This document shows positions 36,797 to 47,544 of a stretch of DNA of 64,000 nt, one piece after another. How positions within the stretch are numbered: position 1 is the first letter of the stretch; every line of letters begins with the position of its first letter. The notes beneath the pieces were generated by a model. It saw nothing but the letters and a program-made list of their open reading frames with translations. It was not told the DNA's origin and did no database searches. The stretch is from Salinibacterium sp. (GTDB lineage: Bacteria > Actinomycetota > Actinomycetes > Actinomycetales > Microbacteriaceae): contig JAHBSZ010000004.1 in the NCBI GenBank assembly GCA_019638845.1, positions 62,001 to 126,000 of the forward strand, given 5' to 3'. The translations under genes and the position numbers were made by a program.

Positions 36797-37819
36797 CTAC
36801 CGGGAGGCTAGCCCGATCCGCCGACGAGCGGAACCGGTGACCAGGATCACGCCGACCAACACCCCCAGTACCGCGACGGCAGCAGGACGCCGGACATCGA
36901 GCCCCGTTTCCGCGAGTGAAGGTCCCGCCGCGACGACCACGGGAGTGTTAGCGGCACGAGCGGCTGCCGCGGCCGCGAAGGAGATAGCCGCGGCATCGGA
37001 CACCGTGGTCATCGTGGGCCCGGAGATCGGGGTGCCCGCGGCGCCCGGTGTGAGTCCTCCCGTCGCGGTCGCACACGTGCTCGGGGTACGGATGACGTTG
37101 CTGTCGAGCGTGACTGACCCGTCGAGAGCGAGCAGGCGCGCGCCCTCGGCCGTGCCCGAGCCGACCGTGGCATCCGTGGTCGCACTGACCGACGTCCGGG
37201 CGATGAGAGTGCCCGCAAACAGCGAACTCGTCCCGAGGGTTGCCGAACTGCCGACTTGCCAGAACACGTTGCACGCCCGGGCTCCACCCACGAGCGCGAC
37301 GACGCTGTTCGAGCTCGTGATGAGGGTCGAACTCGATTGGAAGACGAAGACGTCGTCCGGGCCACCGTTGAGAACGACAGTTCCCGTGAGTTGGAGCGTA
37401 TTTGCCGCCGGGGCTCCGTGATAGACCCCCGGGCCGTACTCGAGCCCGCCCAACTCGTTGGGTATTGCGGTTCCGCCGAGCGCTTCGAGCGCGTCATACG
37501 CGTTGCTCGCATCACTCTGGCCGTTCACCGCTTGCGCCGCGGGCGGCGTGTAGATGGTGCCGTTCACGAGTCCCGGCGGAAAACCGGTCACGGCGGCAGC
37601 GAGACCGGGCGACAGTCCGACATCGCCGGTGATGACCGACGGTCCAGTGTTCGACACGGCAAGTCCGCCTAAAACTGCGAGGCTCTGGGCAGAGCCGAGG
37701 AAGTCCGAGTCCCCCGCTACGCCAGCAGCGGCGTGGGCTGCGCTGACGGGCAGGAAGACGGCGAACGCGAGTCCACAGGCGAGTGTCAGCGAGGGAAGAG
37801 TGCGGCGATACGTGACCAT
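36797..37819 (-). CDS. Ice-binding protein (DUF3494), LAETG wall-anchored
   Basis: 340 residues. Signal peptide (TYRRTLPSLTLACGLAFAVF.. cut near AHAAAG), then a DUF3494 beta-solenoid of about 200 residues (LGGLAVSNTGPSVITGDVGLSPG, DASNAYDALEALGG, LGGLEYGPGVYHG, GPDDVFVFQSSSTLITSSNS, ACNVFWQVGSSATLGTSSLFAGTLIA), the fold of bacterial ice-adhesin/antifreeze proteins. A short Ala/Thr-rich spacer leads to LAETG (302-306), a hydrophobic helix and RRR: a sortase-E-type sorting signal. Start ATG at 37817-37819 is chosen because AGGAA lies 6 nt upstream. Confidence 0.88.
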   Translation of the reverse strand: MVTYRRTLPSLTLACGLAFAVFLPVSAAHAAAGVAGDSDFLGSAQSLAVLGGLAVSNTGPSVITGDVGLSPGLAAAVTGFPPGLVNGTIYTPPAAQAVNGQSDASNAYDALEALGGTAIPNELGGLEYGPGVYHGAPAANTLQLTGTVVLNGGPDDVFVFQSSSTLITSSNSVVALVGGARACNVFWQVGSSATLGTSSLFAGTLIARTSVSATTDATVGSGTAEGARLLALDGSVTLDSNVIRTPSTCATATGGLTPGAAGTPISGPTMTTVSDAAAISFAAAAAARAANTPVVVAAGPSLAETGLDVRRPAAVAVLGVLVGVILVTGSARRRIGLASR

Positions 37820-38016
37820 TGGGGATTCCTGTCGATTCATGAGGGTGTAGCGCACCGTTCATGATCAGCAGGGATGTGCATCCCACGGGTTGTCTCAGCT
37901 GGTCTCCCCCAAGACTGAGTTGTCTACTCCCAATAGTCAAGCGTCGAGCATTGGCGGCGTACCCCGGTCTCTCCGAGTTCTGGGCCGTATCATGTCCACA
38001 ACGTTGGGAGGCTCGG

Positions 38017-38586
38017 GTGTCGCAGGTCGCCGTCGCTCGAACCCCTCGGCACCCCGATGTCGATGAGCGCATCTTCACCGCAGCCCTCGACATCGTGCGA
38101 GGCAAGGGACCACTCGCGGTGAGCGTCGAGTCGGTCGCCGCGGCATCCGGCGTCGCGAAAACGACGATCTACCGCCGATACGAGAACCGCGAGTCGCTAC
38201 TCACTGCGGCGATCATGTCCGCCGCGACCACAGTCGAGTTCCCGTCCGCCCTCTCGGCGAAGGACTCATTGCGCTGGGTGCTGCGACACGCGCGCGACAC
38301 GATCGAGAACGTCGTCGGGCGCGGCACCATCGCTGCGGTCATCATGAACGAAGACCCACAATTCACAGAACTGCTGCTCGGGATGATCCGCAACTCGACC
38401 CGTCCTCTGCGCGTCGACCTCCGCGAACGTGCCCTCGCGGGAGAGATCAAGGCCGACCTCGACATCGAACTTGCCATGAGCGTTGTGCTCGGGGTCGTCG
38501 TTGCCGAACTTATCCGTGGCCGGGCGACCGAAGACGACTGGGTGGAGGCAGTACTCGCCCTGCTCTGGCCGGCGTTCGAGGCCTGA
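38017..38586 (+). CDS. TetR regulator next to the lipid cluster
   Basis: 189 residues. HTH at about 15-62 (ERIFTAALDIVRGKGPLAVSVESVAAASGVAKTTIYRRYENRESLL), TetR_C_11-like C-terminus. GTG start with GGGAGG 5 nt upstream; the longer frame from 37861 has no such signal. Its stop faces that of the alkyl-DHAP synthase-like gene 12 nt away. A candidate repressor of the cluster's divergent promoter. Confidence 0.85.
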   Translation: MSQVAVARTPRHPDVDERIFTAALDIVRGKGPLAVSVESVAAASGVAKTTIYRRYENRESLLTAAIMSAATTVEFPSALSAKDSLRWVLRHARDTIENVVGRGTIAAVIMNEDPQFTELLLGMIRNSTRPLRVDLRERALAGEIKADLDIELAMSVVLGVVVAELIRGRATEDDWVEAVLALLWPAFEA

Positions 38587-38598
38587 GCAGGGCGCGAA

Positions 38599-40356
38599 CT
38601 ACTTCTTCGATGCGGGCTTTCGTGCCACCGGAGCCTTCTTCGCAGCAGGCTTGCGCGTGGCCGGAGTCGTCACCTTCGGACGAGGCAGGATCTTGCCGGG
38701 GTTGAAGTTGTCGTTCGCATCAGAACTCGCGAACAGTCCGGCCATAATCTTGACGCCCTCGGGAGAGATGTCTTCGCTCAGCCACGGCGAGTGCTCGAGC
38801 CCGACCCCGTGGTGGTGCGAGATCGTCGCATCGTTGTCGACGAACGACTGCTGGATGGCTTTCTTGACGACGTCGTATTCGGCGATCGGATCCTTGTCGA
38901 ACACGAACGCAAAGGTGAAGTACAGGCACGCGCCCGAGTGATACGAGTGCGACATGTGCGACATGATCCAGCCTTGGATGCCGATCTGGTCGTAGGCGCC
39001 CTGAGCCGCTGCGTAGGCCGCGTCATGCACTTGATTGAGCTTCGACCACGGCGCTGCGGTCTCCGACACGTCACCCGCTGCCCCCATGTCGAGCAGGAAG
39101 TCGCGCAGATACGGGGTGTCGAACTTCTTCTGGTCGTACAGCACCCCGGGGCCGGTTCCAATGATGGTGAGGCCCTTGTGCTTGCGGATGATCTTCTCCA
39201 CGAGTTTGCGCTGACGCTTCGCGTGCGAGGGGCTGCCCTCGTACCCGATGAACGACAGGCAGATCTGATCGAGGTTCTTCTTGCCCCACGCCACACTCAT
39301 GATCCAAGGCAGGAGCGTTCCCGCCATGAACTTGTCGAGCCCCTTGCGGTCTTTGGACGTCGCGAGCGAGAAGCCCGTCTCCCGCGCATCGGAGATGCGG
39401 GTGATCGAGGGGGCTGCGTCCGACTCAGAGATCTCTTGCATGGCAGCGATGCCTGCCTCCCAGTTCGGGAAGAAGTAGGCATAGACGTCGCGCTTGGCGG
39501 GAATACGGTGCACTTGAGCGGTGACCTCCGTGATCACGCCGAGGCGTCCCTCCGAGCCGAGGATCATCTCGCGAACCGACGGGCCGCTGGAGGTCGACGG
39601 CAGCGGACGCAGCACGAGGGCACCGCCCGGACGCACGACCCGCAGGCCGCGTGCAATGTCGGCAATGTCTCCATACTTGTCTGACTGCATTCCGGATGAG
39701 CGAGTGGCGACCCAGCCGCCAATTGTCGAATGTGTGAAGCTGTCGGGGAAGTGACCGATCGTCCACCCCTGGGCGTTCAGTTGCGCCTCGAGGTCGGGGC
39801 CTTGAGCACCGGCCTGGATGCGGGCGAGGCCAGAGTCCGTGTCGATGTCGATGACCTTGCTCAGGCGACCGAGGTCGAGCGACACGATGGTGCGCTTCTC
39901 CTCAGGCATCGGCTCGAGACTTCCACCGATGTTGCTTCCGCCGCCAAACGGAATAATCACGGCGTTCGCGGCGACCGCAGCATCCACGATCTTCTGGACT
40001 TCGGCTTCGTCTGCCGGGTATACAACGACATCCGGGCTCCGCAGAATGAGGTTGCCGCGTACCCGCATGAGGTCACGGATGCTCTTGCCGTAGGTGTGCA
40101 CGACGCGTGCCATGTCGTCCGTGGTGACGTGCTTGGCACCGACCACGCCGGTGAGTGTCTTGACGAACGCTGCGGTCGCGTTCGACTTGCCCACTTTGAG
40201 GTCGGAGAACGACGGCTCCCCCGCGCGAGTCGCGGTGAGCAGGTCGAGCCCGACCGCATACTTCACGAACGGCGCGAAGCCGGGCTTGTCCTCATAGTGG
40301 AAGCCGACACCGTCGACGCCCCAGCCCCACCACTTCATGTGCTTGACGTCAGTCAT
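38599..40356 (-). CDS. Alkyldihydroxyacetonephosphate synthase-like FAD oxidoreductase
   Basis: 585 residues. FAD_binding_4 domain with PFGGGSNIGGSLEP (about 138-151) and (G)WTIGHFPDSFTHSTIGGWVATRSSGMQSDKYGDIADI, the phosphate-binding block typical of alkyl-DHAP synthases; the C-terminal FAD-oxidase_C domain contains HMSHSYHSGACLYFTFAF and HHHGVGLEHSPWL, matching the AGPS active-site His cluster. The known reaction swaps the acyl chain of acyl-DHAP for a fatty alcohol, making an ether bond. The last 25 or so residues are a Lys/Ala/Pro tail. AGAAGGGA precedes the ATG. Confidence 0.87.
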   Translation of the reverse strand: MTDVKHMKWWGWGVDGVGFHYEDKPGFAPFVKYAVGLDLLTATRAGEPSFSDLKVGKSNATAAFVKTLTGVVGAKHVTTDDMARVVHTYGKSIRDLMRVRGNLILRSPDVVVYPADEAEVQKIVDAAVAANAVIIPFGGGSNIGGSLEPMPEEKRTIVSLDLGRLSKVIDIDTDSGLARIQAGAQGPDLEAQLNAQGWTIGHFPDSFTHSTIGGWVATRSSGMQSDKYGDIADIARGLRVVRPGGALVLRPLPSTSSGPSVREMILGSEGRLGVITEVTAQVHRIPAKRDVYAYFFPNWEAGIAAMQEISESDAAPSITRISDARETGFSLATSKDRKGLDKFMAGTLLPWIMSVAWGKKNLDQICLSFIGYEGSPSHAKRQRKLVEKIIRKHKGLTIIGTGPGVLYDQKKFDTPYLRDFLLDMGAAGDVSETAAPWSKLNQVHDAAYAAAQGAYDQIGIQGWIMSHMSHSYHSGACLYFTFAFVFDKDPIAEYDVVKKAIQQSFVDNDATISHHHGVGLEHSPWLSEDISPEGVKIMAGLFASSDANDNFNPGKILPRPKVTTPATRKPAAKKAPVARKPASKK

Positions 40357-41038
40357 GTGCGTGTCCCTTCTGAGAGTGCGCCGGCATCGGCGACACGGTT
40401 TCATGCAATCGACGGACCTCGTCCGCCAATCGAGTCGAGAATTTGTCTGCAGTCTCACCAGACTCTGGCATCATCGGTGGTCCGAAGACCACTGTCACGG
40501 GCAATCTTCCGCGCTTGGGCCAGCTGACCCCGCGCGGCATTGCGGCACTTGCGCCCACCAGCGCGATGGGCAGGCATGGCGATTTCGTCGCAATCGCGAG
40601 GGCCGCGGCGCCGGGCTTGAAACGGCCCATGACACCGGTCTTCGAACGCCCACCCTCGGGGAAGATCAACAGTGGGACCTTCCGATCGAGCAGCGCCTTC
40701 GACGAACCGCCTCGCTTACCTTCTGACCTTCGCTCGATCGCGAACGCGTTGAAGAACAACGTCGTGAGCCATTTACGCCACTGCACATCGAAGAAGTAGT
40801 CGGCGGCGGCGCCGGCCGCGAGATACCGAGCAAGGCGGTACGGCAGTGCACCGATCACGAGCGGCGCGTCGAGGTGACTCGAGTGGTTCGCGACCACGAT
40901 GAACGGAGCATCCAGATCTTTGATGTCCTCTTCGCCTTGGGTAGTCACCCGCACCAGCCGCCACACCAGGGGTTTGAGGAGGCCGCGTTGGGCTACCCGG
41001 CGCACCCGCGCCACACCCGGCGAAGTGAAGCGGTCCAT
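40349..41038 (-). CDS. 1-acylglycerol-3-phosphate acyltransferase-like (PlsC) protein
   Basis: 229 residues. PlsC-type acyltransferase with NHSSHLD (H52-x4-D57), the FPEGGRS loop (126-132) and PIALVGA; membrane-associated. In this context it may acylate DHAP or an alkyl-glycerol phosphate. Start ATG overlaps the SDR stop as TGATG, and its own stop overlaps the next gene by 8 nt. A longer frame starts inside the SDR gene. Confidence 0.87.
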   Translation of the reverse strand: MDRFTSPGVARVRRVAQRGLLKPLVWRLVRVTTQGEEDIKDLDAPFIVVANHSSHLDAPLVIGALPYRLARYLAAGAAADYFFDVQWRKWLTTLFFNAFAIERRSEGKRGGSSKALLDRKVPLLIFPEGGRSKTGVMGRFKPGAAALAIATKSPCLPIALVGASAAMPRGVSWPKRGRLPVTVVFGPPMMPESGETADKFSTRLADEVRRLHETVSPMPAHSQKGHAHD

Positions 41039-41841
41039 CAGCGCTTCTCCGACGTCACGGAACTCTGTTCGGAGTCTGTAGTGCGGCTCGACGAAATGCT
41101 GGCCGAGATCGACCGAATGGTGCGCAACGGGAGGTGCCGCACAAACCACCCGATCATCCGGTATCGAACTGTGGGTATGGAAACAACGCGACCTCGCCGC
41201 GCATCCCGAAGCGCAGCGCGCGCGACAGTCTCGGGGTCGCTCCACAGGAAGTCGGGAACAGAACTACGGCGCATCCCAGCACGTTCGTGCCATTCGGTAC
41301 GCACCCACCCTGGCAGCACTGCGGTGACCGTGACACCGCTTCCGCGCAGTTCCACGGCGAGCCCTTGGCTGAACGAAGTGACCCACGCCTTGATCGCCGC
41401 ATACGACCCTGTCGCCAAATACGTTTGCAGACTCGAAACGTTGATGATCGACCCGCCACGACCGGCCATCGACCGGCCAGCGGCGCCCCCGAGCACGAGC
41501 ACAGCGCGACACATAACCTCGAAGGCATGTTCGTGGTGCGAGGTGTCAACTGAGGTGAGGGGCGTGTGCACTCCGAAGCCTGCGTTGTTGATGAGCAGGT
41601 CGAGGGGCCGCTCGGGATCGTCGATTCGGGCTACGACGCGCGCAACATCTGCGCGGTCTGCGAGGTCGACGCTCATGGTCTCGACATGGATGCCCGAAGC
41701 GGCATGCAATTCGTCTGCTGAAGCCTTGAGGCGATCCGGGTCGCGGGCGACGAGCACGAGGTCGTACCCGCGTGCGGCTAGCTGTCGGGCAAACGCGGCG
41801 CCGATGCCGGAAGTGCCGCCCGTGATGAGAGCCGTAGCCAT
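41038..41841 (-). CDS. Short-chain dehydrogenase/reductase of the lipid cluster
   Basis: 267 residues, classical SDR: TGGTSGIG (8-15), NNAG (86-89), Ser in INVSS and YAAIK (YxxxK) all intact. Closest in style to ketosphinganine/acyl-DHAP reductase-like and fatty aldehyde reductase-like SDRs, with a hydrophobic/basic C-terminus that may touch the membrane. Could reduce alkyl-DHAP to alkyl-glycerol phosphate. First gene of the leftward arm; TAATGT -10 box 7 nt before ATG. Confidence 0.85.
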   Translation of the reverse strand: MATALITGGTSGIGAAFARQLAARGYDLVLVARDPDRLKASADELHAASGIHVETMSVDLADRADVARVVARIDDPERPLDLLINNAGFGVHTPLTSVDTSHHEHAFEVMCRAVLVLGGAAGRSMAGRGGSIINVSSLQTYLATGSYAAIKAWVTSFSQGLAVELRGSGVTVTAVLPGWVRTEWHERAGMRRSSVPDFLWSDPETVARAALRDARRGRVVSIPTVRYRMIGWFVRHLPLRTIRSISASISSSRTTDSEQSSVTSEKR

Positions 41842-41848
41842 GACGGAT

Positions 41849-41873
41849 ACATTACGCTACGGGTCCCGTAGCG
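41849..41873. promoter_or_regulatory. Divergent promoter with perfect 19-bp palindrome
   Basis: CGCTACGGG-T-CCCGTAGCG at 41855-41873 abuts the leftward -10 box TAATGT (41854-41849) on its upstream side, so it fills the -35/-10 spacer. The rightward side has TAGACT at 41883-41888 as a possible -10. An excellent operator candidate for the TetR at 38017. Confidence 0.65.
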
Positions 41874-41924
41874 CCGCTCGGGTAGACTTCACTGGACTCT
41901 TCACCGCTCTCGGAGGTAACACGG

Positions 41925-42731
41925 ATGCCGGATCATAAAGAGGCGTCCGTGGACATCATGCGATTCCCGGCCCCCGACTTTGACGTGCGGGAGTATGCGC
42001 GCAATGCTGCCGGCTCGCACCGGGACGAATTGGGTCTCGAGGAGTACCGCGAGAACCCGCTCAGCGCGGAGGGTTTGCGCCTCATCCGCTACCTCCAGGT
42101 GATCGAACGGGCCACCATGACGCACTTGCGCAGCGTGCTCGTCACGGCGACCCACAAAGACGCCAGGATTACGGCGTTCCTCACCACGTGGGCGTTCGAG
42201 AAGTACTGGATCGCCGACGCCTTTGAACAGATCGGCCTCGCCCACCAGCCCGAGGGCACCGACGTTGACCGCGCACCCTTCATTACCCCCGCAGAGCGCA
42301 CGATCCGGGAGTCGATTGTCGCCAACATCATCGGCCTTCCGATGATCGCGGTGCACATGACTCTGGGCACCATCGACGCCTGGCTCAGCCAAGCGGCCTA
42401 TGCACGGCTTGCAGCTCTTGAACAGCACCCCCAGCTGGCTAGAACCATGCAGAAGTTCACCGAGCTCAAAGAGCGCCAGCTGACCTTCTTCGAAGCACAA
42501 TCCCGCTATCGCCTTACTGAATCGAAGCAGGCACGCAAGCTCACGCGCAAGCGACTCATCAAGACCCCGTGGCCGATCGGCGCGAAGGCAGAACCGCGAG
42601 AGGAGACCGTCTACTTCTTCGACCGTCTCTTTGGTTCTGCCCGCGAGCTCGTCGCCGAACTCGACGCCCGCATCGACACCCTCCCCGGCCAGACCGGCCT
42701 GTCGCTCATCCGAAAGGCCGCCCAGCTGTGA
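41925..42731 (+). CDS. Ferritin-like protein lacking diiron ligands (pseudoenzyme)
   Basis: 268 residues, paralogue of the diiron protein at 45033. Shared: PLP/SAE..LR.IRY.., (L)VT.(S/T)HK, IAVHM, AAY.R.A.LEQHP.L and the F(F/Y).(A)Q(S/A)R helix. Of the six ligand positions only the first Glu (E61) remains; the others are K93, I96, A152, K182 and Q185. It should not bind two irons. GGAGG lies 8 nt before the ATG. It overlaps the reductase start by GTGA, so all three rightward genes are coupled. Possibly a structural or regulatory partner. Confidence 0.8.
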   Translation: MPDHKEASVDIMRFPAPDFDVREYARNAAGSHRDELGLEEYRENPLSAEGLRLIRYLQVIERATMTHLRSVLVTATHKDARITAFLTTWAFEKYWIADAFEQIGLAHQPEGTDVDRAPFITPAERTIRESIVANIIGLPMIAVHMTLGTIDAWLSQAAYARLAALEQHPQLARTMQKFTELKERQLTFFEAQSRYRLTESKQARKLTRKRLIKTPWPIGAKAEPREETVYFFDRLFGSARELVAELDARIDTLPGQTGLSLIRKAAQL

Positions 42732-45043
42732 CTCCCACACGCGCGACGACCACACGCACCTTGACCAACGAGCATGTCTTCCTCACCGGAGGCACTGGCT
42801 TCCTCGGTCAGGCGATACTCGAACGGCTGCTGTCGTCGCATCCCGGCACACGAATGACCTTGCTCGTGCGCGGCAAAGGCAGCCAGACTGGCGAGGCCCG
42901 ACTCGAAGGGCTGTTGCGCAAACCCGTATTCAAGGGCTGGGTCGAGTCCGTCGGCGGCAAAGAGAAGGCGGCCGCCGAGTTCGCGCGCCGCGTCACCGCC
43001 CACGAGGGAAGCCTGAGCAACGTCGGCGTCCTTCCGGACGATATCGACATCGTCTTGCACTCCGCGTCGACGGTGTCGTTCGACCCGCCCATCGACGAAG
43101 CCTTCGACACGAACGTGGGCGGCGCCTACGGCGTGTACGGCGCGCTACTCGCATCCAAGAGCGACCCGCACGTCGTGCACATCTCTACTGCCTACGTCGG
43201 CGGCATTCGCAAAGGCATCGCGCCCGAGGCATCCCTCACTCATAACGTCGACTGGCGTGCCGAATACGAAGCCGCGAAGTCTGCGCGCCTTCGGGTGGAG
43301 ATGGAGTCACGACAGCCGGAGGCGCTGCGCGAACAGCTTCAGCGCGCAAAAGCGCGCCACGGCAAGACCGGCCCGCAAGCAGTTGCCGGTTTCGCCGAAA
43401 CCGCACGCGCCGAGTGGGTTCGTGAACGCCTCGTCGACTACGGTCGCACCCGCGCCGAGAGCCTCGGCTGGACCGACGTGTACACGCTCACGAAGGCGTT
43501 CGCCGAGCGCGCTGCGGAAGAGCTGTGGTCGCAAGCCGGCCACCGGCTCTCGATAGTGCGACCGTCGATCATCGAGAGCGCGCTTACGCATCCGTTTCCC
43601 GGCTGGATCGACGGGTTCAAGGTCGCAGACCCGCTCATCATCGCCTACGGTCGCGGCCAGCTCCCCGACTTTCCTGGGCTTCCCGATTCGATCCTCGATG
43701 TCATCCCCGTGGACTTCGTGGTGAACGCCGCACTCGCGGCCGCTGGTCGCCCCGCTAAGCCCAACGATGCGAAATACTTCCAGGTCGTCTCCGGCAAGAC
43801 CAACCCGCTGCCGTTCCACCGCATGTACGAGAACGTCAACCGCTACTTCACCGAGAACCCGCTGCCCGATGAGAAGGGCGACATCATTGTGCCCAAGTGG
43901 CGCTTCCCTGGTGGCCAAAAAGTCGAGAAGGCGCTCGAGAAGCGCGAGCACCAGGTGGTCCGCGCCGAGAAACTCATCGAACGGATGCCGACAACCAAGC
44001 GCACGCGCGAGTGGCTCGACACCGTGCGCAAGGGCAAGCACGGCCTTCAGCAGTTGCGAGCGTTCACCGAGCTGTACCGCGCGTATGTGCAGACGGAGAT
44101 CATCTTCGACGACACCAACACACGCGCGCTCCTCGCCTCGCTGCCCAAGAAGGTGCAGGCCGACGAAGGCTTCGACGTCAACGACATCGACTGGGAACAC
44201 TACTGGCAGCAAGTGCACTTCCCGGCGGTGACCACGCTCACGCGCGCGTTCGGCAAGCGCCCCTCGGCGAAGGCCAAGAGCCAGAAGGTGCTGCCCGCTC
44301 GCACCGACGTGCTTGCCGTGTTCGACCTCGAGGGCACCGTGCTCGAATCGAACCTCGTGAAGCAGTACCTCACGCTGTGGGCAGGCACGGTCCCCCGATC
44401 CCGCGTCGCCCACGACCTGGCGAACTTCACCTTCTCGCTGCGCAAGTACTGGCGTGCGGAGCGCCGTGACCGCGGCGAGTTCATCCGTACGTTTATGCGC
44501 CGTTACAAGGGGTTCAAGGTCAGCGAGATCGAGCGTCAGGTACGCGGACCGTTTGGCCGGGCGATGCTGCGTCGTGCCCTGCCGGACGCGCTGCGTCGCG
44601 TGCAGGAGCATAGGGATGCCGGCCACCGCACGATCTTGGTGACCGGATCCATCGACCTCACGGTCACACCATTCTTGCCGTACTTCGACGAGGTCGTCGC
44701 GGGCCGGATGCACGACGTTGACGGAGTGCTCACCGGCTTCCTCGCCGACCCGCCGCTCGTCGACGAAGCCCGTGCCGCATGGCTGCGCCACTATGCCGCC
44801 CAGAACGGATTCGACCTCGAGAACTCATACGGCTACGGCGACAACCACGCCGACCTCGTGTGGCTTCAGCTCGTGGGAAACCCGAACGCCGTGAATCCGG
44901 ATATCAATTTGTACCGTCACGCCAAGGAAAAGCACTGGAATGTGTTGGACTGGAAGCGCAGGGCTACAAGCGTTGCGAGCGCTGGCTCCGAATCAGCTAA
45001 GAATGAATCGACCAGCACGGAAGGAGTCGAGCATGGCGTTTGA
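42728..45043 (+). CDS. Fatty acyl-CoA reductase fused to a HAD-like phosphatase domain
   Basis: 771 residues. N-terminal NAD_binding_4 reductase: GGTGFLG (21-27), (V)LHSASTVSFDPP, YTLTK (Y252-x3-K256) and VRPSIIESAL, as in fatty acyl-CoA reductases giving fatty alcohols; a helical sterile-like linker about 400-510; then a HAD-IB domain with DLEGT (D533, E535 where Asp is usual), TGSIDLTV and YGYGDNHADL. A predicted fatty alcohol source for an alkyl-DHAP synthase. The HAD half might remove phosphate or act like the phosphatase/acyltransferase fusions of related proteins. GTG start overlaps the previous stop. Confidence 0.88.
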   Translation: MTPTRATTTRTLTNEHVFLTGGTGFLGQAILERLLSSHPGTRMTLLVRGKGSQTGEARLEGLLRKPVFKGWVESVGGKEKAAAEFARRVTAHEGSLSNVGVLPDDIDIVLHSASTVSFDPPIDEAFDTNVGGAYGVYGALLASKSDPHVVHISTAYVGGIRKGIAPEASLTHNVDWRAEYEAAKSARLRVEMESRQPEALREQLQRAKARHGKTGPQAVAGFAETARAEWVRERLVDYGRTRAESLGWTDVYTLTKAFAERAAEELWSQAGHRLSIVRPSIIESALTHPFPGWIDGFKVADPLIIAYGRGQLPDFPGLPDSILDVIPVDFVVNAALAAAGRPAKPNDAKYFQVVSGKTNPLPFHRMYENVNRYFTENPLPDEKGDIIVPKWRFPGGQKVEKALEKREHQVVRAEKLIERMPTTKRTREWLDTVRKGKHGLQQLRAFTELYRAYVQTEIIFDDTNTRALLASLPKKVQADEGFDVNDIDWEHYWQQVHFPAVTTLTRAFGKRPSAKAKSQKVLPARTDVLAVFDLEGTVLESNLVKQYLTLWAGTVPRSRVAHDLANFTFSLRKYWRAERRDRGEFIRTFMRRYKGFKVSEIERQVRGPFGRAMLRRALPDALRRVQEHRDAGHRTILVTGSIDLTVTPFLPYFDEVVAGRMHDVDGVLTGFLADPPLVDEARAAWLRHYAAQNGFDLENSYGYGDNHADLVWLQLVGNPNAVNPDINLYRHAKEKHWNVLDWKRRATSVASAGSESAKNESTSTEGVEHGV

Positions 45044-45845
45044 CATCGACAGATACACCAGCACCTCCAAGAAGGTGGTCTGGGGCGATCTCGACTTCGA
45101 TCAGTTCACGACGAATCCGCTTCCCGAAGCGACGTTGCGCAGCATCCGATACATGGCTGATATCGAGTACCACACGGTCTGCTACTTGCGCGATCTGCTC
45201 GTCACCCCGTCGCACAAGGAGGCCGATGTCTCGGCCTTCATGACGATGTGGAACCGTGAGGAGTTCTGGCACGGCGAAGCACTATCGGCAGTGCTTGCGG
45301 CACACGGGGTGACCCTCGACTTCGACCAGCTCAAGGCCACCCGCCTGAAGCTCGGCTGGAAGGATCGCCTCGACCCGATCAAGCAGTCGCTGCTCGGCAA
45401 CATCGTGGGCAAAGACTTCATCGCCGTGCACATGATCTGGGGTGCCGCGAACGAGTGGTCTGCTGTCGCCGCTTACAACCGCATGGCCGACCTCGAACAG
45501 CACCCCGTCTTGGCCGAACTGCTGCGCCGCATCGCGAAGCAGGAGGCACGCCACGTCGCGTTCTATGCGACTCAGGCGCGCGACCGCCTTGCCAAGAGCA
45601 AGAAGGCACAGGTGTTGGCCCGCTTCGCGTTGAAGAACGCGTGGGGTCCGGTCGGCTCGAGTGTCATGGCGCCCATCGAGGTCACCCACGTCATGGGCCA
45701 CATCTTCGCGGGCGAGGAGGGCATGCGGGAGATCCGCAAGCTCGACGAGCACATCTCACGGATGCCCGGACTCGAGGGCCTCACCATCGTGGAGACCGCG
45801 ATGAAGAAGTATGGCGTCTCTGCCCCCGCCGCGGTTGCTGCGTAG
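45033..45845 (+). CDS. Ferritin-like diiron protein
   Basis: 270 residues. The four-helix diiron pattern is complete: E45, E77-x2-H80 (EFWH), E141, E171-x2-H174 (EARH). Soluble, similar in layout to acyl-ACP desaturases and other O2-activating carboxylate-bridged enzymes. In this cluster it may desaturate or hydroxylate an alkyl/acyl chain. AAGGAG lies 6 nt before the ATG, which is inside the reductase gene (11-nt overlap). No annotated function can be assigned. Confidence 0.85.
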   Translation: MAFDIDRYTSTSKKVVWGDLDFDQFTTNPLPEATLRSIRYMADIEYHTVCYLRDLLVTPSHKEADVSAFMTMWNREEFWHGEALSAVLAAHGVTLDFDQLKATRLKLGWKDRLDPIKQSLLGNIVGKDFIAVHMIWGAANEWSAVAAYNRMADLEQHPVLAELLRRIAKQEARHVAFYATQARDRLAKSKKAQVLARFALKNAWGPVGSSVMAPIEVTHVMGHIFAGEEGMREIRKLDEHISRMPGLEGLTIVETAMKKYGVSAPAAVAA

Positions 45846-46350: not shown

Positions 46351-47544
46351 ATGCACGATACGACCCTGCTGCTCATCGAAGTCGGAGCGCTTCTGCTCGT
46401 GCTGAGCTTGCTGGGTCGCGTGGCCTTGCGCTTCGGCGTTTCGCCCATCCCCCTTTATTTGCTCGCGGGGCTGACCGTGGGCCACGGCGGCGTTCTCCCG
46501 TTGCAAGCGAGCCAGGACTTCTTCGAGGTCGGCTCGGAGATCGGCGTCATCTTGCTGCTTGCGATGCTGGGGCTCGAGTACTCCCCCTCGGAGCTCGTCC
46601 GCAACCTCAAGCAGTCCCGCCTGGCAGGAGTGCTTGATGCTCTGCTCAACGCGATACCGGGGGCTGCGTTCGCGTTGCTCCTCGGGTGGGGGCCGGTGGC
46701 CGCTGTGACACTCGCTGGGGTCACGTGGGTGTCGTCATCCGGGGTTGTCGCCAAGGTGTTGCGTGACCTGCGTCGACTGAGCAACCGTGAGACGCCGGTA
46801 ATCCTGTCCGTGCTGGTCATCGAAGACCTGGCGATGGCCTTCTACCTCCCTGTGCTCTCTGCCTTGGTGATCGGTGCGGGTCTACTGCAGGGCGCAACGA
46901 CCGTCGTGGTTGCGGTGACGGTGGTCGTGGTCATCCTGTTCGCTGCTTTGCGGTTCGGCAAGGTTCTCTCGCGACTGTTTCCGGCGCAGAGCCCCGAACC
47001 GCTGCTCCTCGGGGTGCTCGGGCTCACGATGCTCGTCGCCGGGCTCGCAGAGCAGGTGAGTGTGTCGGCGGCTGTCGGCGCATTCCTCGTCGGTATCGCC
47101 ATCTCGGGTCAGGTCGCCCATAACGCGACGGTGGTGCTCGCTCCCCTGCGGGATCTGTTTGCCACCGTGTTTTTCGTGTTCTTCGGGATCGCCACCGATC
47201 CGGCCGACATCGTGCCGGTCATCCTTCCCGCGCTTGCACTCGCCGTCGTCACCATCGCAACGAAGACGCTCGGTGGGTACATCGCGGCCCGGCGTGCGGG
47301 AATCGGCGTTCCCGGTAGCTGGCGCACCGGCCTCACCCTCACGCCGCGTGGCGAGTTCTCGATCGTCATCGCCGGGCTTGCCGTGGGTGCGGGCATCGAG
47401 CCCATGCTCGCCCCGCTCGCCACCGCCTACGTGCTCATCACCGTGATCGCCGGCCCACTGCTGGCGAGAATCCCGGATGCGACGTGGTTCAAGAACGCCG
47501 TGCGCAATCGACGGTTGGCGACCGAGGCCAGCGAGCCCGTCTAG
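46351..47544 (+). CDS. CPA2-family K+(Na+)/H+ antiporter, KhtU/KefB-like
   Basis: 397 residues, twelve or so helices. The CPA2 hallmarks GSEIGVILLLAMLGLEYSPSEL, the (V)SSSGVVAKVL discontinuous helix, VLVIEDLAMAFYLP and VSVSAAVGAFLVGIAISGQ are present. No soluble KTN domain, which agrees with the separate TrkA-C subunit. Likely exports K+ or Na+ in exchange for H+. Confidence 0.9.
   Translation: MHDTTLLLIEVGALLLVLSLLGRVALRFGVSPIPLYLLAGLTVGHGGVLPLQASQDFFEVGSEIGVILLLAMLGLEYSPSELVRNLKQSRLAGVLDALLNAIPGAAFALLLGWGPVAAVTLAGVTWVSSSGVVAKVLRDLRRLSNRETPVILSVLVIEDLAMAFYLPVLSALVIGAGLLQGATTVVVAVTVVVVILFAALRFGKVLSRLFPAQSPEPLLLGVLGLTMLVAGLAEQVSVSAAVGAFLVGIAISGQVAHNATVVLAPLRDLFATVFFVFFGIATDPADIVPVILPALALAVVTIATKTLGGYIAARRAGIGVPGSWRTGLTLTPRGEFSIVIAGLAVGAGIEPMLAPLATAYVLITVIAGPLLARIPDATWFKNAVRNRRLATEASEPV

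Follow-up and report, generated by a model that had tools for sequence, protein, structure and literature searches.

A compact cluster of six genes at positions 38599-45845 of a 64,000-nucleotide stretch of the Salinibacterium sp. genome (contig JAHBSZ010000004.1, positions 62,001 to 126,000; hereafter the window) is proposed here to encode an oxygen-dependent ether-lipid pathway ending in plasmalogens, a reading to which we give a probability of about two in three. The genes lie in two divergent arms with overlapping frames, the leftward arm in the order SDR (short-chain dehydrogenase/reductase), PlsC, AGPS and the rightward arm in the order Fer1, FAR-HAD (a fatty acyl reductase fused to a phosphatase-like domain), Fer2. 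The ether core of this pathway is highly probable, and it is rather likely that Fer2, one of two ferritin-like proteins, is the vinyl-ether enzyme. A little less firmly, we favour the view that aerobic actinobacteria would thereby possess a second, non-homologous O2-dependent plasmalogen desaturase, in which a soluble Fer2/Fer1 heteromer replaces CarF/PEDS1. The six genes are the following (DHAP, dihydroxyacetone phosphate):

38599-40356, minus strand: AGPS-like alkyl-DHAP synthase, a flavin adenine dinucleotide protein of 585 residues (2uuu/4bby homology, SHHH loop)
40349-41038, minus strand: PlsC-type acyltransferase, proposed DHAP or lyso-lipid acyltransferase (Pfam Acyltransferase, E 2.3e-18)
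41038-41841, minus strand: SDR, proposed alkyl-DHAP reductase (adh_short, E 3.8e-40)
41925-42731, plus strand: Fer1, a ferritin-like protein paralogous to Fer2 whose metal site is incomplete (ligand positions, 106 rows)
42728-45043, plus strand: FAR-HAD fusion, reductase of the alcohol-forming type (by homology) with a HAD-IB phosphatase-like domain (profile homology)
45033-45845, plus strand: Fer2, soluble and diiron desaturase-like, proposed subunit of a vinyl-ether (delta-1') desaturase (six ligands, fold model)

In the proposed pathway, FAR would convert acyl-coenzyme A (acyl-CoA) or an acyl chain on acyl carrier protein (acyl-ACP) into a (branched) fatty alcohol, the PlsC-type enzyme would acylate DHAP, AGPS would form alkyl-DHAP by replacing this acyl chain with the fatty alcohol, and the SDR would reduce alkyl-DHAP to alkyl-glycerol-3-phosphate, which would enter normal phospho- or glycolipid synthesis. 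Some of the alkyl-glycerol-3-phosphate may be steered towards glycolipids by the fused HAD phosphatase; that this domain releases alkyl-acylglycerol for this purpose is a tentative suggestion, which we hold a little below even odds. Finally Fer2, the sole candidate for oxygen-dependent desaturation in the operon, would use O2 to introduce the double bond adjacent to the ether oxygen, and would probably do so in a heteromeric complex with the metal-poor Fer1. We infer each of these substrates, the Fer1-Fer2 complex and the vinyl-ether step from the genes.

Enzymes of the two arms

The initial annotation had described an AGPS-like oxidase, a PlsC and an SDR that overlap and point leftward, and an acyl reductase-HAD fusion that overlaps two flanking ferritin-like genes and points rightward; the open frames, with families as stated, bear out both arms. 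The ATG of PlsC and the stop of SDR have one base in common, the AGPS frame overlaps the end of PlsC by 8 bp, and the rightward frames overlap by 4 bp (Fer1/FAR-HAD) and 11 bp (FAR-HAD/Fer2). It had also assigned all four ether-lipid steps (acyl reductase, acyltransferase, alkyl-DHAP synthase and SDR) to the cluster, and both the families and the catalytic residues, described below, agree with these predicted functions.

By its sequence matches, AGPS is a true relative of the alkyl-DHAP synthases: it matches the solved enzymes 2uuu (E 3.8e-110, residues 63-556, 372 bits) and 4bby (E 5.4e-74, 253 bits) with the SHHHGVG loop aligned, the best match to any other flavoprotein reaching only 79 bits. 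Residue conservation was counted over rows comprising the window and the distinct sequences from loci L037-L171, identical rows being dropped, as were short ones (1 Fer2, 4 AGPS, 2 FAR-HAD and 4 PlsC). The SHHH loop with its three His, R320 and Y479 are invariant in 105/105 AGPS rows and Y472 is kept in 100/105; the conserved Arg and Tyr we take to be active-site residues. The H and D of HX4D, plus FP, are invariant in 108 rows of PlsC, as are S137, Y147 and K151 in 108 rows of SDR. Among the NCBIfam families shown, no model was matched above its cut-off by SDR or PlsC, and SDR has diverse relatives of solved structure.

The FAR-HAD fusion contains NAD_binding_4 (E 3.2e-45) and HAD (3.6e-29) domains, together with a Sterile match (3.6e-7) under its cut-off, and Y252, K256, D533, E535, G640, D705 and D709 are invariant in 109 rows. 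Its FAR half matches, by profile, the solved fatty acyl-CoA reductase 7eoz (E 9.5e-65), whose family yields alcohols, and its HAD half matches phosphoserine-phosphatase-like proteins. Cyanobacterial alkanes are made by acyl reductases adjoining ferritin-like enzymes, a precedent for supposing that the products of FAR-HAD and Fer2 are hydrocarbons or wax esters and that the AGPS-like protein is an unrelated flavin-dependent oxidase. Because the AGPS match is specific (372 versus 79 bits, His loop kept) and the FAR half is related to an alcohol-making reductase, we rejected alkane or wax-ester synthesis, which we regard as very improbable.

Fer1 and Fer2 are paralogues with 33% identity, and rows were assigned to one or the other by the better-matching protein of the window. 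The six putative diiron ligands of Fer2 (E45, E77, H80, E141, E171 and H174) are all kept in 101/101 rows, which makes Fer2 a probable binder of two irons. Where Fer2 has E77, H80 and E171, the corresponding ligand residue is present in 0/106 rows of Fer1 (mostly Lys, Ile and Lys instead), which is therefore probably unable to bind two irons and would be a non-catalytic partner; Fer1 had no Pfam or NCBIfam match at E 0.001. The window's Fer2 stays below every cut-off, its FA_desaturase_2 and Rubrerythrin matches included; PF03405 matches at E<=0.01 were obtained for 41/51 rows (41 Fer2 and 10 Fer1 scanned). An AlphaFold2 model of Fer2 (predicted local distance difference test, pLDDT, 87.5; predicted template modelling score, pTM, 0.87) has as its nearest folds in Foldseek the soluble acyl-ACP desaturases, followed by R2-like oxidases and R2 proteins (template modelling score on the query 0.49-0.62 for the ten best matches; 12-18% identity for the 15 best). 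In a profile search of solved sequences, Fer2 found M. tuberculosis DesA2 at E 0.003, ranked behind a designed helix bundle. The known soluble acyl-ACP desaturases have the layout E, ExxH, E, ExxH, and Fer2 may resemble them (castor delta-9, Thunbergia and M. tuberculosis DesA2) in its modelled fold and putative site; unlike them, it has an inactive-looking paralogue as a neighbour and lies in the context of an ether operon.

Co-inheritance of the cluster genes

Gene content, gene order, co-inheritance and conserved catalytic residues are matters of direct observation, and co-inheritance was followed through a survey of 199 genomes of the window's own family (own genome included), with orthologue thresholds of at least 61% identity for AGPS and at least 60% for Fer2. 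FAR-HAD was found in 56 genomes, an AGPS orthologue in 55 and a Fer2 orthologue in 59. The AGPS orthologue accompanies FAR-HAD in 55/56 genomes (in the exception, G107, the contig is cut at that place) and is found without it in none of the 199; Fer2 accompanies FAR-HAD in 54/56 (exceptions G113, at a contig end, and G101, 85% complete) and is found without it in 5. The corresponding Fisher p values, which ignore relatedness, are 1e-48 (FAR-HAD/AGPS) and 3e-40 (FAR-HAD/Fer2). The initial annotation had left it to a neighbourhood comparison whether the two arms travel together, and they do; its proposal of a dedicated ether-lipid operon is supported by this co-inheritance, with enzyme activities that we infer. 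Distant AGPS-like matches (32-41% identity) occur in four genomes lacking FAR-HAD (G017, G063, G064 and G142, the last with 39%). In ten genera whose listed members differ in FAR-HAD (the comparison covers listed members only), AGPS tracks it in ten and Fer2 in eight, departing in g22 (core without Fer2) and g80 (Fer2 without core); in g58, Fer2 is present in 1/3 genomes and the core in none.

The six genes keep the same order and strands, beyond what chance would give, in 50/55 regions fetched from the family, five of these 50 having a 2.4-kb insert before Fer2. The exceptions are L060 and L091, which stop at contig ends, L063, which is without the Fer pair, and L084 and L086, where the pair lies about 7 kb off on the opposite strand. 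Likewise, 72 of 80 named loci (taken from 307 matches; the named and family sets overlap in genomes) have all six genes in the same order. Here the exceptions are L135 and L149 (contig ends), L154 (rearranged), L142, L145 and L166 (no Fer pair at the locus), and L152 and L157 (without AGPS, SDR and Fer1). A Fer2 profile search was positive in 13/14 genomes, including those of L145, L166, L152 and L157 (the negative one is that of L142), and for the Naasia and Kocuria loci the Fer pair is located elsewhere in the genome. In g323, a genus of another family, 12 genomes have Fer2 with no Fer1 match, AGPS is present in 8/8 genomes searched (61-64% identical), and three regions were read, each with FAR-HAD, SDR, PlsC and AGPS in a single operon. 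Genomes with a broken-up cluster thus mostly retain Fer proteins.

Dimethylacetals and the proposed vinyl-ether step

Acid methanolysis of plasmalogens gives dimethylacetals (DMA), and published papers report these compounds for one sequenced carrier strain and for further genera with cluster loci. Subtercola vilae DB165, which carries all six genes (L167) and belongs to a genus with FAR-HAD in 12/12 genomes, contains i16:0 DMA (17.0%), a15:0 DMA (3.2%) and a17:0 DMA (1.9%), about 22% in total, reported as dimethylacetals and not as intact vinyl ethers (PMC5945732). Iso-C15:0 DMA is reported at up to 4% for Agreia (PMC5945732) and an a15:0 aldehyde/DMA peak for Frigoribacterium faeni and F. 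adelgis (PMC12823222); cluster loci are present in Agreia pratensis and A. bicolorata (L141 and L146) and in several Frigoribacterium, without the insert of S. vilae. Dimethylacetals were likewise taken as a sign of plasmalogens in a paper on Kineococcus, where gas chromatography-mass spectrometry identified a peak that MIDI had named C14:0 2-OH as anteiso-C15:0 dimethylacetal, and according to which, within MIDI, only the anaerobe library knows dimethylacetals (PMC7472656). Given this naming and this library limit, negative reports of dimethylacetals are weak evidence.

The published tables for Subtercola can be read in the same light. For S. vilae, one gives 15.6% 2OH-C14:0 and no dimethylacetals (PMC9287328) and another gives dimethylacetals and no 14:0 2-OH (PMC5945732). 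The type strains of S. boreus, S. frigoramans and S. lobariae are listed with 10.4%, 9.9% and 3.9% 2OH-C14:0 (PMC9287328), and all four species have dimethylacetals in print. Against a misnamed peak stands S. lobariae, for which 14:0 2-OH (10.3%) and dimethylacetals appear in one table, the dimethylacetals coming from cells grown at 20 instead of 25 degrees C (PMC5945732). Frondihabitans, which has cluster loci (L151, L156 and L159) and is described with C14:0 2-OH as a major component and no dimethylacetals (PMC5945732), was considered as a counter-example; it is weakened by the Kineococcus identification and the opposite S. vilae tables, because its peak may be misnamed too. If the plasmalogen reading is true, plasmalogens would be common in this family, and many of the "C14:0 2-OH" peaks reported there would in reality be anteiso-C15:0 dimethylacetals.

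The known vinyl-ether enzymes were searched for in six carriers, S. vilae included. PF10520 (Lipid_desat, the CarF/PEDS1 domain) had no match in any of the six at E<=1, and no PF10520 protein was found in the window's own genome; in the phylum, the profile was positive in 12/296 genomes. DUF2229, which we take to mark PlsA, was equally absent from the six at E<=1, its control being positive in 6/14 (above the cut-off in 4). A CarF hidden elsewhere in carriers was therefore rejected for the six tested. Vinyl-ether formation by a ferritin-like protein, raised in the initial annotation as one example of chain modification, gains support as a predicted function, since a dimethylacetal-bearing carrier had no match to the known vinyl-ether enzyme domains. 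Separately, a CarF/PEDS1-type gene (PF10520 E 3.4e-48; 178 bits in the NCBI CarF model, whose cut-off is 500) is found in one genome of the phylum (L193, 2903-6152) next to a FAR and the C-terminal end of an AGPS, perhaps the same pathway with a known desaturase; nine other CarF regions fetched, some of them short, had no AGPS match.

The cluster might instead make saturated alkyl-ether lipids only, the Fer pair carrying out some other modification (mid-chain desaturation or hydroxylation) and the dimethylacetals of carriers coming from another enzyme or from FAR-made aldehydes. FAR enzymes do go through an aldehyde intermediate, and L142 (a metagenome-assembled genome, G207, that may be incomplete) keeps FAR-HAD, AGPS, PlsC and SDR with no Fer2 match; moreover, one paper labels its peak aldehyde/DMA (PMC12823222). 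We nevertheless consider this alternative unlikely, since S. vilae combines its dimethylacetals, and its lack of PF10520 and DUF2229 matches, with very few unsaturated acyl chains: a-15:1, the sole one in one table, was not detected (PMC5945732), and a second paper gives 1.3% C17:1 and 0.8% C18:1 (PMC9287328). The Fer pair is thus left without another abundant product in this strain.

Several observations weigh against a plasmalogen end product or against this role for Fer2. The window's Fer2 scores 20.7 bits with PF03405, short of the gathering score of 22.7, and Foldseek with the Fer2 model returned nothing at E<=0.001, its best match (1.6e-3) being weak. In 5/59 Fer2-positive family genomes (G025, G057, G079, G102 and G142) the Fer pair occurs with neither FAR-HAD nor an AGPS orthologue, and the pair also occurs in G850, a further genome of the family, whose search for AGPS at E 1e-40 found no match; the pair can therefore serve some use without this core. 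The genomes of L157 (Haloactinopolyspora) and L152 have FAR-HAD and Fer2 with no AGPS match. Among the lipid data, the table entry for S. endophyticus has no 2OH-C14:0 peak (PMC9287328), though FAR-HAD is present in 12/12 genomes of its genus, and F. endophyticum, with all six genes at L170, is reported without a15:0 DMA (PMC12823222). Salinibacterium metalliresistens H3M29-4 (L095, all six genes) is listed with ordinary branched acids at 41.05, 25.60 and 27.46% (PMC10713820), so that 94% lies in three ordinary chains and little room is left for dimethylacetals. Dimethylacetals can arise from aldehydes too, and two extra genes inside the S. vilae cluster (L167, 12352-14624), a LarA-like gene and a second PlsC, could matter for the dimethylacetals of this species.

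The LarA-like gene (NPN-dependent isomerase family) is below its cut-off in S. vilae. A LarA-like gene and a second PlsC also follow FAR-HAD at L157 (13621-16173) and, by position, at L152, where Fer2 adjoins the second PlsC; without AGPS, this module may provide an alternative way to make the same lipid. In a FastTree phylogeny, the S. vilae FAR-HAD groups with those of L157 and L152 (local support 100, long branch), and the S. vilae product may therefore depend partly on this module. Directly after Fer2 in S. vilae lies a diacylglycerol-kinase-like gene (L167, 15667-16770), which fits a lipid-phosphate step opposite to that of the HAD domain.

The Fer pair without the core would also suit a general acyl-ACP/acyl-CoA desaturase or oxygenase that merely rides with the ether operon, as would the nearest folds of Fer2, which act on acyl-ACP, and the one genus with the pair and no ether core in which an epoxide-hydrolase gene precedes and overlaps fer1 (L172, 7394-9360). 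Such a passenger is improbable in our judgement, given the co-inheritance with the core (54/56), the retention of the pair where the cluster is broken up, and the dominance of branched saturated chains in the carrier S. vilae (PMC5945732).

The plasmalogen pathway proposed here shares its list of steps with that of animals (peroxisomal/endoplasmic reticulum; FAR1, GNPAT, AGPS, PexRAP and PEDS1), namely an acyl reductase, a DHAP acyltransferase-like enzyme, AGPS, a reductase and an O2-dependent desaturase candidate (PMC9131029); unlike the animal pathway, it is encoded in one bacterial gene cluster with FAR fused to HAD, and its desaturase candidate is soluble and ferritin-like, PEDS1 being a membrane protein. 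Myxococcus xanthus (elb operon, MXAN_1676-1674, CarF) is similarly an aerobe with AGPS, FAR, an acyltransferase, HAD and branched chains, but its main route needs the multidomain ElbD and its desaturase is CarF (PMC9131029), whereas the present cluster offers no ether-forming candidate other than AGPS. The end product proposed for the cluster is also that of the reductive, anaerobic PlsA/PlsR of clostridia, which, by contrast, acts on diacyl lipids (PMC9702350). A review describes aerobic bacterial plasmalogens as a myxobacterial exception via CarF, with true CarF otherwise only in Leptospira (PMC9131029); dimethylacetals have been reported from aerobic actinobacteria in passages that name no gene (PMC5945732, PMC7472656), and literature searches of open-licence papers found no gene cluster behind them. 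Ether lipids and plasmalogens are already known; these papers gave no earlier description of the present gene set with its soluble diiron desaturase candidate. The cluster offers a testable genetic basis for an old observation and suggests that the vinyl-ether step evolved at least three times (PlsA, CarF/PEDS1 and Fer2). If the proposal is true, work on a soluble two-subunit desaturase would also be more straightforward than work on the membrane enzyme with which humans make plasmalogens.

Probable regulator, neighbouring genes and probable transfer

Two further features accompany the cluster, the first standing at its edge as initially annotated:

38017-38586, plus strand: TetR-family regulator (TetR_N E 2.8e-8, TetR_C_11 E 3.8e-8), convergent with AGPS
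41855-41873, no strand: perfect 19-bp palindrome CGCTACGGGTCCCGTAGCG, lying between the two arms and probably an operator for TetR

The palindrome lies in the 83-bp gap between the arms, and a single copy of its 15-bp core is present in the window, against 0.18 expected at <=2 mismatches. The motif CGCTACGG-N3-CCGTAGCG is present in the inter-arm gap of 15/124 loci examined, and 14 of these 15 (L092-L101, L103, L105, L107 and L109) have a nearby TetR match with 55-85% identity; at L106 the motif is present with no TetR match. It is absent from 29 loci that do have a TetR match, including L108 (54%), L149 (58%) and the less closely related loci of Herbiconiux, Plantibacter and S. vilae; L037, L104 and L155, close relatives without TetR, also lack it. 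Judging from this distribution, the TetR of this sub-group probably uses the palindrome as its operator, and regulation of the divergent promoter by TetR is probable. Promoter and terminator scans gave nothing above chance, and the window yielded no Rfam or tRNA matches. The TetR gene is adjoined by a gene for an ice-binding-like protein (36797-37855; PF11999, E 1.4e-48), perhaps reflecting a cold habitat, and downstream of Fer2 lies a transporter of the sodium/hydrogen-exchanger family (46351-47544; PF00999, E 1.5e-50).

The nearest FAR-HAD relatives of the window's strain are in Rhodoglobus, Leifsonia and Salinibacterium loci. Viral contigs, scanned by pattern, yielded no relative. In the FAR-HAD tree, two Microbacterium rows fall within the Salinibacterium-Rhodoglobus group and a Streptomyces row falls beside Schumannella, and a linear Streptomyces plasmid of 2.35 Mb (NBC_01450), which is typed as mobilizable, carries all six genes together (L255, 4711-12792); from these placements and this plasmid, the cluster has probably passed between lineages.

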